Shown here: positions 11,653 to 25,235 of the stretch, piece by piece
Position numbering within the stretch: the stretch's first letter is position 1
Layout: every line of letters starts with the position of its first letter
NCBI GenBank assembly: GCA_021845985.1
Contig: JAJZES010000017.1
Span: 1 to 64,000 of the forward strand
Source of the DNA: Pseudomonadota bacterium
Lineage (GTDB): Bacteria > Pseudomonadota > Alphaproteobacteria > Acetobacterales > Acetobacteraceae
Direction of reading: 5' to 3'
DNA: 64,000 bases
Notes under the pieces: generated by a model
Told to the model about the DNA's origin: nothing
The model's database searches: none
Seen by the model: only the letters and a program-made list of their open reading frames with translations
Position numbers and translations under genes: made by a program

Positions 11653-12069
11653 TCAACCATGACGCGACCGCGCCAGTTCTACCCGGGCCAGTTCTACCCG
11701 GGCCAGTTCCACCCGGGCGCGCAGCACCAGCGCCGCCAGCACCGCGCGCAGCGCCGGGTCGGCCGCCGCCGGCAGCTCGGCGGCCAGCGCCGCCAGTCCC
11801 TCCAGCCGCGGCGCGATGCCGGCCAGCAGATCGCGCTGCAGCGCCGCCAGCGCCGCCAGCAGGTCGCGCCCGCGCTGGCGCGCCCGGCGGTCCGCGGCGC
11901 CGGTGTCGCCCGCCTCCTGCAGCGCCAGCAAGCCGTCGAGCAGCACCGCCGGCGTCGCCACGGCGGCCGGCGGCGGCGCCGCCTCGGGCACCCGGAAGCC
12001 GCCCGCCGCCGGGCGGCGCGGCGTGCCGCCCGCCGCTGTCGCCCCGGTCATGCCGCCGATCGGATCCAT
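11653..12069 (-). CDS. fliX: Flagellar assembly regulator FliX
   Basis: 138 aa. The N-terminus is Gly/Pro/Ala-rich with FRVPEA, then the conserved core LLDGLLALQEAGDTGAADRRARQRGRDLLAAL and a helical second half, as in FliX, the trans-acting regulator that couples class II flagellar assembly to FlbD activity. ATG at 12069 is set by AAGGAGG five bases upstream. It is divergent from flgI, as in Caulobacter. The C-terminus is unusual: VELAR occurs three times, encoded by three 15-base repeats (11673-11717), just before the stop. Confidence 0.85.
   Translation of the reverse strand: MDPIGGMTGATAAGGTPRRPAAGGFRVPEAAPPPAAVATPAVLLDGLLALQEAGDTGAADRRARQRGRDLLAALAALQRDLLAGIAPRLEGLAALAAELPAAADPALRAVLAALVLRARVELARVELARVELARSRHG
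11673..11717. repeat. Three 15-bp tandem repeats inside fliX
   Basis: Unit CCAGTTCTACCCGGG at 11673-11687 and 11688-11702 is identical; the third copy (11703-11717) has one change, T to C. Fifteen bases keep the frame, so copy number changes only alter the number of VELAR pentapeptides at the end of FliX. Confidence 0.95.
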
Positions 12070-22479: not shown

Positions 22480-23112
22480 ATGCCGGATTTCATCCTGGAG
22501 CTTGCCGCCGGCGGTCGCGTCGCCGGGGTCGATGAGGCGGGTCGCGGGCCGCTGGCCGGCCCGGTGGTGGCCGCCGCGGTGGTCATGCTGGGCCGGCCGG
22601 AGCCGGCGCTGGTGCGGCTGATCGACGATTCGAAGAAGCTGGACGCGGCAGCCCGCGCCGCGGCGTTCGCCGCACTCGGCGCGGCCCGCCGCGCCGGCAC
22701 GCTGGAAATCGGCGTCGGCGCCGCGTCCGTGGCCGAGATCGGCCGGCTCAACATCCTGCAGGCGGCGCTGCTGGCGATGGCACGCGCGGTGGCGCGGCTG
22801 CCGGCGCCGCCCGACCTCGCGCTGATCGACGGCAACCAGCCGCCGGCGCTCGGCTGCGCCACGCGCTGCGTGGTCGGCGGCGACGCCCGGTGTCTGTCGA
22901 TCGCCGCCGCCTCGATCGTCGCCAAGGTGCTGCGCGACCGGACGATGGCGCGGCTGGCGCGGCGGTTTCCGGCCTATGGCTGGGACCGCAACGCCGGCTA
23001 CGCCACCGCGTCGCACCGGGCGGCGCTGCGCGATTTCGGCCCGGCACCGCACCATCGCGCCGGGTTCGGCACGGTGCGGCAACTGGCGCTCGATCTGCTT
23101 GGACCGACGTGA
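22480..23112 (+). CDS. rnhB: Ribonuclease HII
   Basis: 210 aa. Removes RNA from RNA-DNA hybrids and ribonucleotides misincorporated in DNA. The active-site motif [19 protein letters not shown] begins at residue 16 with Asp18 and Glu19; the later catalytic Asp is in [10 protein letters not shown] near 115, and [16 protein letters not shown]-like [13 protein letters not shown] lies near 150. Normal length and standard C-terminus. ATG follows a run of GGTCGGCGC without a strong ribosome site. Confidence 0.96.
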
Positions 23113-23134
23113 AACCGGAGCGCGGCGGCACAAT

Positions 23135-23560
23135 TCAGAGAGGCGCCGCTGCCTTCGTTCGCTCCTTCCGGCCCTGCTGCGACGACAGTGACTTCGCACG
23201 CCTGACGAACTGCTTCTCGATCCGTGCGGCGTCTGCGCCGGCTGGCGGCTCGCCGACAGACCGATAAATGACGCCATCGAAGTCAACACCGTCGATCGGG
23301 CAGTCGTGAACTTCGACGAAACCGGCGCCATCTACTCTGACCGCCTGGGAAATCAAACGAAACAAGGCGTCAGACGGGCTGCCAAGGTGGATATCGGCAG
23401 CCGTCAGGCCCTGACCCATATCGAGATGCTGAATTGCGTCCAGCAGGATGCCATAGGCCGTCCTGCGGCCAAGGGTATCAATCAATGATGTAACAATGTA
23501 AAAGCGCCAATCATCCAGGGCGTGATCGTATATCCACATAGCGCCCTGCGCCTGCATCAT
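23135..23560 (-). CDS. Hypothetical protein next to a broken HEPN gene (about 141 aa)
   Basis: No family recognised. The protein begins near MQAQGAMWIYDHALDDWRFYIV and has a regular mix of helices and strands with LGSPSDALFRLISQAV in the middle and a short basic C-terminal tail (QFVRRAKSLSSQQGRKERTKA). The frame upstream is open only back to a stop 14 codons earlier. Start by ATG at 23560 or 23557, both with weak ribosome sites. It follows the HEPN pseudogene by 40 bases in the same direction, so the two were probably cotranscribed as a pair. Confidence 0.6.
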   Translation of the reverse strand: MMQAQGAMWIYDHALDDWRFYIVTSLIDTLGRRTAYGILLDAIQHLDMGQGLTAADIHLGSPSDALFRLISQAVRVDGAGFVEVHDCPIDGVDFDGVIYRSVGEPPAGADAARIEKQFVRRAKSLSSQQGRKERTKAAAPL

Positions 23561-23600
23561 CAATTCATCCGTGGCAGCCAGAAGTGCGCATCAAGCTTGC

Positions 23601-24057
23601 TTAGCTCGGCCGAAAGATGCTCTCTAACCACTTCATGACCCCGTCTGTCTCGTGGCACACAGCTACGAAAAGGTCGTTGATCTGCCGATTTTGCGGCTTC
23701 TTGCCTGGAAGGCGAGCCTCGCTTTTCCAGTCGCGCACGGTAAGCCAGTTTACATAGACAGCCTTCCGTTTATGAAGCGCCGAAATGTCCTTCTCAAGCC
23801 CTGCCCGGCTCAAGCCCTGCCCGGCTCGAGCCCTGCCCGGGCGGCGATCAGCGCCAGATCGTGCCACTTCGCGCCAACGCAGTCCGGCGGGAGTGCCGCC
23901 AAACCGTTGCGGCGGATATAGATCGCCTTGAGAGCGAACTCCACCGCCTGTCCGGCATTGTGATAGGCCTGCCGGGCGTGGCCGTTCGCCTTCAGCGTTT
24001 TGCCGCACGCAACTCGTCGCAGGCAGATCGCCACCAGTCCTCGTCAGTCGCGGACAT
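23601..24057 (-). pseudogene. HEPN-domain gene disrupted by a 16-bp tandem triplication and a base loss
   Basis: Pieces in three frames join into one HEPN protein: start MSATDEDWWRSACDELRAAK (ATG 24057, AGGA upstream), then KANGHARQAYHNAGQAVEFA and IYIRRNG, AKWHDLALIAARAGLE, then LHKRKAVYVNWLTVRDWKSE and a C-terminal DGVMKWLESIF to TAA at 23601. Two faults break it: one base is missing in a run of A near 24000 (AAAA where AAAAA is needed), and three copies of a 16-base unit stand where one would keep the frame (32 extra bases). Reading with a single copy restores a smooth HEPN helix bundle. HEPN proteins often act in nucleic-acid-directed defence or toxin-antitoxin pairs; which one this is cannot be told. 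Confidence 0.75.
23793..23840. repeat. Three 16-bp tandem repeats inside the HEPN gene
   Basis: On the plus strand the unit is CTCAAGCCCTGCCCGG. Copies 23793-23808 and 23809-23824 are identical; copy 23825-23840 differs by one base (CTCGAG). Because 16 is not a multiple of three, each gain or loss of a unit changes the frame. Confidence 0.95.
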
Positions 24058-24173
24058 GGCGCCGTCCTGGTACGATGGCTGGCAGCCAAGCCTTCATTTC
24101 GGCCCCCGCGACCTGCGGACAGCCGCCGGCGGTCCATAACCCATTTGATGCTGCTCGGCCAAAAATCTGGCGC

Positions 24174-24203
24174 AAAAAAGGGCGGGCACGCGCGTGCCCG
24201 CCC
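24174..24203 (-). terminator. Strong rho-independent terminator of the OmpA-like gene
   Basis: A near-uninterrupted palindrome (GGGCGGGCACGC / GCGTGCCCGCCC) followed, reading leftward, by six T. It sits 24 bases past the stop at 24228. The same arrangement would also isolate the HEPN locus from readthrough. Confidence 0.9.
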
Positions 24204-24227
24204 TCTTCTGGGTGACCTATCGCAGCC

Positions 24228-25235
24228 CTACTTCAGGATGATCTCGACGCGCCGGTTCTGCGGCTCGCGCACGCCGGCCGCCGTCGGCACCAGCAGATGC
24301 GTGTCGCCGAAGCCCTGGGCAACGATCTCGTTCTGCGGCACGCCGTCCTTGACCAGTTCGGCGGCCACGTTCTGCGCCCGCATCGCCGACAGCTTCTGGT
24401 TGTAGGCGGTGGTGCCCGAGGTGTCGGTGTAGCCGTTCACCTCGATCCGCGTGACCGCCACGCGGCTGACGTTCTGGGCCGCTTCGCCGATGATCTGGCG
24501 GGCACGGTCGGTCAGGTCAGCCTTGTCCCAGTCGAAGAACACCAGATAGGTGCGGCTCGGCGCCGGGGCCGGGGCGGCAACCGGCGTCGGGGCAGCGGCC
24601 GGCGGCGGCGGCGGCGGCGGCGCCACGTTCAGCGCATAGCGCAGGCCGACCAAGATCGAGTTGTTGTACTGGTTGGCGATGCGGGTGCCGCCATAGGTCA
24701 TCTGGTCGGCCGTCGCCATGAAGCGGTATTCCAGCGTCGCCGACAGGCCCGGCACCATCGCCACCGGGAAGGCGGCGCCGATGATGGCCTGACCGGCGAT
24801 GTCGGGCTTGCTGGCGTTGAAGCCAACGCCCGTAGCGGTCCGACCCTTGGTATCATCGAGCATCTGGCCACCGACGCCGACGCCGAAATACGGGTAAACC
24901 ACCTTGCTGCCGATGTCGAGATCATACAACGCGTTGACGAAGCCGCCGTAGGTCTGGTTCTGGGCATGCTGCGGACCGTGGTTCTGGTCCGTGTTGTAGT
25001 AATCGCCCTGCAGCTCGACACGCAGGCCGTTGCCGAAGCCGTAGCCTACGCTACCCACCCCGACCAGACCGCCATCGTTGCCGAGGGTGCCGCCGCCGTT
25101 GTTCTTGATCTTCTGATTCTGGAGGAAGTTGTAGCCGGCACCGGCGCCGACATACATACCATCCACCGGCTGGGCCAGCGCCGCCGCCGGCAATGCCAGC
25201 ACGCTCGCGGCAACGAGCAGGTTCCGGAGGTTCAT
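24228..25235 (-). CDS. OmpA-family outer-membrane protein
   Basis: 335 aa. Signal peptide to about residue 21 (VAASVLALPAAALAQ), then an eight-strand-like barrel with GMYVGAGAGYNFLQNQK, YGFGNGLRVELQGDYYN, PYFGVGVGGQML and LSATLEYRFMATA. A Pro-rich linker (about 210-225) leads to the OmpA-like peptidoglycan-binding domain: TYLVFFDWDKADLTDRA, NGYTDTSGTTAYNQKLS, MRAQNVAAEL and the conserved end NRRVEI. It anchors the outer membrane to peptidoglycan. GAGGAGAGAG precedes the ATG. Confidence 0.93.
   Translation of the reverse strand: MNLRNLLVAASVLALPAAALAQPVDGMYVGAGAGYNFLQNQKIKNNGGGTLGNDGGLVGVGSVGYGFGNGLRVELQGDYYNTDQNHGPQHAQNQTYGGFVNALYDLDIGSKVVYPYFGVGVGGQMLDDTKGRTATGVGFNASKPDIAGQAIIGAAFPVAMVPGLSATLEYRFMATADQMTYGGTRIANQYNNSILVGLRYALNVAPPPPPPPAAAPTPVAAPAPAPSRTYLVFFDWDKADLTDRARQIIGEAAQNVSRVAVTRIEVNGYTDTSGTTAYNQKLSAMRAQNVAAELVKDGVPQNEIVAQGFGDTHLLVPTAAGVREPQNRRVEIILK

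Follow-up and report, generated by a model that had tools for sequence, protein, structure and literature searches.

A 16-bp tandem repeat inside a HEPN-domain gene of an Acetobacteraceae bacterium raises the question of whether the gene is switched on and off by changes in repeat copy number or has simply been disabled by mutation. The original prediction was that triplication of the unit, together with a homopolymer slip, had put the gene out of frame, that slippage between copy numbers would toggle it, and that an adjacent gene at 23135 might be its partner. We analyzed the whole stretch of 64,000 nucleotides in which the gene lies (positions 1 to 64,000 of contig JAJZES010000017.1), hereafter the window, and compared the locus with its relatives in other genomes, plasmids and phages.

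Frame breaks in the HEPN gene and its overlapping partner

The remains of the HEPN-domain gene, of about 141 codons when intact, were located on the minus strand at 23604..24057 by three-frame tblastn, six-frame reading and a match to Pfam PF05168. Only 21 codons are open from the ATG before a TGA is reached. The intact HEPN protein of an uncultured Roseiarcus genome (a MAG; locus L008) served as the reference for reading the frames, and in tblastn against the unmodified window it was recovered as three ordered pieces in three frames, with residues 1-20 matching 24057-23998 (E 1e-4), residues 20-78 matching 24001-23825 (E 7e-19), and the C-terminal half giving a match that ends at 23610 (E 3e-22). 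Since the L008 protein matches untouched DNA in three frames, this reading is independent of the repair used in the original prediction, and it bore out the HEPN-domain identity of the gene.

The first frame break, at 23985..24005 on the minus strand, was placed from the sequence and from the change of frame between L008 residues 20 and 21, and is a small indel beside a run of A's. A break near 24000 had been predicted and was found, but its ascription to a homopolymer slip is a guess, as the run comprises only four A's and the position of the indel is not exactly fixable.

The second frame break coincides with the tandem array at 23793..23840, which was characterized by TRF, a genome search, alignment with L008 and simulations. 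Here the unit CTCAAGCCCTGCCCGG (plus strand) stands three times head to tail, as had been predicted; two copies are identical and the third carries one substitution, and TRF reported a period of 16, 3.0 copies, 96% matches and a score of 89. Comparison at lag 16 gave 31 matching positions out of 32. When the whole window was simulated 20 times with a first-order Markov model, the best value over lags 10-40 was 25/32, which ruled out a chance origin of the repeat. No other site within one mismatch of the unit was detected in the 3.78-Mb genome, and intact relatives hold the equivalent of a single unit. The units differ so little that the expansion is, in part at least, recent; it may be unstable even now, a point against reading the locus as decayed. 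The window holds a second tandem array at 11668-11718 (15-bp unit, 3.4 copies, 94% matches), whose unit length is a multiple of three and therefore keeps any reading frame.

Reading the array as one unit restored a smooth protein, in agreement with the original prediction: the read-through HEPN protein aligned with its L008 counterpart over 141 columns without a gap and with 49% identity, and with that of Novosphingobium indicum (L009) with 30% identity and one short gap. Against PF05168 it scored 27.9 bits, above the cut-off of 22 (39.2 bits for L008, with some relatives falling just below the cut-off), and the profile covers only the first half of the window protein.

The gene at 23135 turned out to be the partner that had been suspected, since the same overlapping arrangement of the two genes recurs nine times elsewhere, in genomes, on plasmids and in a phage. 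When intact, it would occupy 23135..23640 on the minus strand and overlap the end of the HEPN gene, as judged from its open reading frame, its 48% identity to the L008 partner, the conserved pair and a structural model. The frame is now open from 23563 only (to 23135), and the first predicted helix is missing. A third frame break lies at about 23580..23600 (minus strand), in the start of the partner just past the HEPN stop codon: the L008 and L009 partners match the window from residue 19 only, at 23584, and the first ~18 codons, where the gene overlaps the end of the HEPN gene, are out of frame with the rest, a counterpart of the lost start being readable in another frame. The HEPN gene is indeed out of frame twice, once near 24000 and once at the array, while this third break in the partner had been overlooked.

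The surviving partner frame and its identity to L008 would be in keeping with a HEPN gene that is dead and a shortened partner that continues to be expressed and retained, perhaps in the role of orphan antitoxin or regulator. However, the shortened protein would lack the model's first helix, predicted at residues 10-25, which the intact relatives keep, and scans for promoters and terminators at the locus gave nothing above shuffled sequences, including no promoter-like site for the shortened gene, although this is weak evidence. We regard such a role as hardly credible.

Sequencing or assembly error, with a gene pair that is intact in the organism, would also produce broken frames, and a draft genome of 45 contigs with a G+C-rich, partly self-complementary repeat at the locus gives some ground for suspecting it. 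Nevertheless, three errors would be needed within ~450 bp, whereas about 95% of the rest of the window lies under long coding-like frames, and none of the three break sites has a long homopolymer. An ordinary sequencing read is, moreover, longer than the 48-bp array. We therefore consider error to be unlikely, and infer that the frame changes are genuine.

Intact relatives and the case against phase variation

Intact overlapping HEPN-partner pairs were found in nine places, on chromosomes, two plasmids and one Klebsiella phage, with a partner of similar size. They lie in the uncultured Roseiarcus genome (L008:5001-5854), in Novosphingobium indicum (L009:5001-5848), in alphaproteobacterial genomes G106 (L031:7994-8778), G071 (L032:7349-8130) and G031 (L033:308-1116), the last of which belongs to the window's own family, in genome G482 of the same phylum (L047:1501-2300), on plasmids of Acinetobacter johnsonii (L044:2998-3797) and Lichenicola cladoniae (L046:2977-3815), and in Klebsiella phage Kp4864-1 (L054:2980-3785), for which the pair was recognized from reading frames only. 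Alignments and profile searches tied eight of the nine partners to one family, and the phage copy was assigned by inspection.

Relatives of the HEPN protein are rare: in the class sample they were present in 3 of 385 genomes, one of which is the source of the window, and in the phylum sample in 9 of 398, where some are distant and stand without the partner. No plasmid relatives of the window HEPN protein were found; the more typical L031 homologue has three, and its relatives were not detected in viral contigs. In addition, a Deinococcus plasmid (L045:2998-4766) carries a HEPN gene of this family followed by an overlapping DUF3800 gene and not by the usual partner. Within the genome under study, no intact paralogue of the HEPN gene was found, and the sole other PF05168 match is an open frame on contig 28 (L057; G000:C28:163486-163764).

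For phase variation, a tract is required that restores the gene simply by changing in length. The proposal that the HEPN gene is switched by 16-mer copy number, alone or in combination with the length of the A-run, draws on a unit of non-triplet length, on its position within the frame and its three almost identical copies, and on the one-unit version, in which the downstream frame runs on into the upstream frame. In having a non-triplet tandem repeat inside a reading frame, the locus resembles the repeat-controlled phase-variable genes of the Campylobacter/Neisseria type, but it differs from them in its few long units, in its other disabling mutations and in having relatives without the repeat. 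There are two frame breaks besides the repeat, one of them in the partner, and because only one of the three breaks lies at the repeat, a change in copy number alone restores neither gene. Likewise, four units would be expected to add 16 residues at a place where the alignment with L008 is gap-free. The tracts themselves (four A's, and three 16-mers of which one has already diverged) fall below the cut-offs of PhasomeIt for phase-variable tracts, which are at least 10 for A/T and at least five for longer units (PMC6321876). A 16-bp tandem was found in the HEPN or partner genes of none of the eight relatives checked, and a literature search yielded no paper linking HEPN, phase variation and tandem repeats. 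Given three independent breaks, tracts this short and relatives lacking the repeat, we rejected phase variation as very unlikely; recent inactivation, which the original prediction had offered as its alternative, is the better fit.

Fold, motifs and likeness to known systems

The structural model of the L008 HEPN protein (pLDDT 86.3) is helical, and its seven top PDB matches are all HEPN or HEPN-like, with TM scores of 0.57-0.62 at best and probabilities of 0.99-1.00, but with E values of 0.02 or weaker; the closest entries are 1ufb, 1wol, 1o3u and 2hsb (AF0298). Searches with PDB sequence profiles gave no credible relative of either the HEPN protein or the partner. The Rx4-6H motif of HEPN ribonucleases is not conserved in the family, in which only scattered chance matches to it occur. 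What the family does conserve is Ex3K, a histidine of the HDL type in the loop that follows helix 2, and an arginine further on. The same pattern is present in AF0298-like HEPN-T proteins and in AbiV, for which an alternative active site has been suggested (Anantharaman et al. 2013, PMC3710099), and one HEPN relative matches Pfam HEPN_AbiV, albeit below the cut-off. The family is like HEPN-T (PF05168) in its profile match, helical model, Ex3K, histidine and arginine and in the absence of Rx4-6H (PMC3710099); the window protein differs in being broken, in matching over the first half only, and in having a neighbour from a partner family without an entry in Pfam.

For the partner, the model (pLDDT 88.7) gave no clear counterpart in the PDB. 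The best matches are to the HEPN-MNT complex entries 7ae2 and 7ae9 (E 0.009-0.02, TM ~0.3-0.4), in chains that we take to be the MNT chain, judged by chain length only. The partner matched nothing in Pfam, MNT profiles included, nothing in PADLOC and nothing convincing in a viral fold library, and the GSx(n)DxD nucleotidyltransferase motif is present in none of eight partners. With HEPN-MNT systems (HepT-MntA, type VII toxin-antitoxin), the pair shares two small adjacent genes, the HEPN gene first, and this weak match of the partner model; it differs in a partner without GSx(n)DxD or an MNT profile, in a HEPN protein without Rx4-6H, and in the low TM of the match. Canonical HEPN-MNT membership was ruled out by the lack of both motif and profile in the partner.

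Two further collections gave matches. HEPN relatives match the PADLOC phage defence candidate PDC-M28A with E values from 2e-10 (L031) to 1e-3, although the window HEPN protein reaches only 0.015. Intact HEPN and partner relatives also match two phage families that have no recorded function, PHROG 5737 and 5760, with E values down to 1e-31 and 9e-6, from which the window copy differs in being chromosomal and broken.

The intact pair would plausibly act as a module of toxin-antitoxin or defence type, the partner holding back or directing the HEPN protein. A more specific version, put forward tentatively and rather doubtful at present, is that it could be an undescribed toxin-antitoxin or phage-defence module, whose partner is an MNT-like regulator that has diverged far and has no nucleotidyltransferase motif, and whose HEPN protein relies on the alternative histidine.

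Probable origin and decay of the cassette

The locus has a G+C content of 60%, with a minimum of 54%, versus 70% for the window, and the GC3 of the partner is 0.68 versus mostly 0.8-0.9 in neighbouring genes. Both genes are absent from all four congeneric genomes searched. The flanking region was compared through rnhB, which was found in three congeners with different far-side neighbours in each; an empty-site comparison was defeated by this differing gene order beyond rnhB, and given such varied neighbours, 23112-24228 may be a hot spot of rearrangement or insertion. Elsewhere, the pair is carried by plasmids and phage. Rarity, base composition and absence from congeners together suggest a horizontally moving accessory cassette.

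Compared with their intact homologues, the two genes carry several independent disabling mutations, three frame breaks in all, as is characteristic of pseudogenes. The remaining HEPN and partner frames nevertheless read well against relatives and are free of stops except at the frame breaks; because these frames are otherwise intact, any decay of the pair is young. We consider it quite probable that a horizontally acquired HEPN-partner cassette is decaying here by ordinary mutation, and that the expansion of the 16-bp unit, which arose by slippage, is one of its three lesions and not a reversible switch. In such a course of events, a two-gene cassette, comprising the HEPN gene and the overlapping partner downstream of it, would have been acquired by horizontal transfer. 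Its HEPN gene would then have suffered a small indel near 24000 and slippage at 23793-23840, where the 16-bp stretch expanded into three tandem units, and its partner another small indel at about 23580-23600. Between them, these three independent lesions would have inactivated the HEPN gene and truncated the partner, and loss of the cassette would have been tolerated or favoured.

The locus illustrates that a tempting signature of phase variation can be one of several unrelated mutations of decay, and that intact homologues decide between the two. More useful than the pseudogene itself is the conserved overlapping HEPN-partner pair on chromosomes, plasmids and phage, which, with a partner family without a Pfam entry, merits a functional test.
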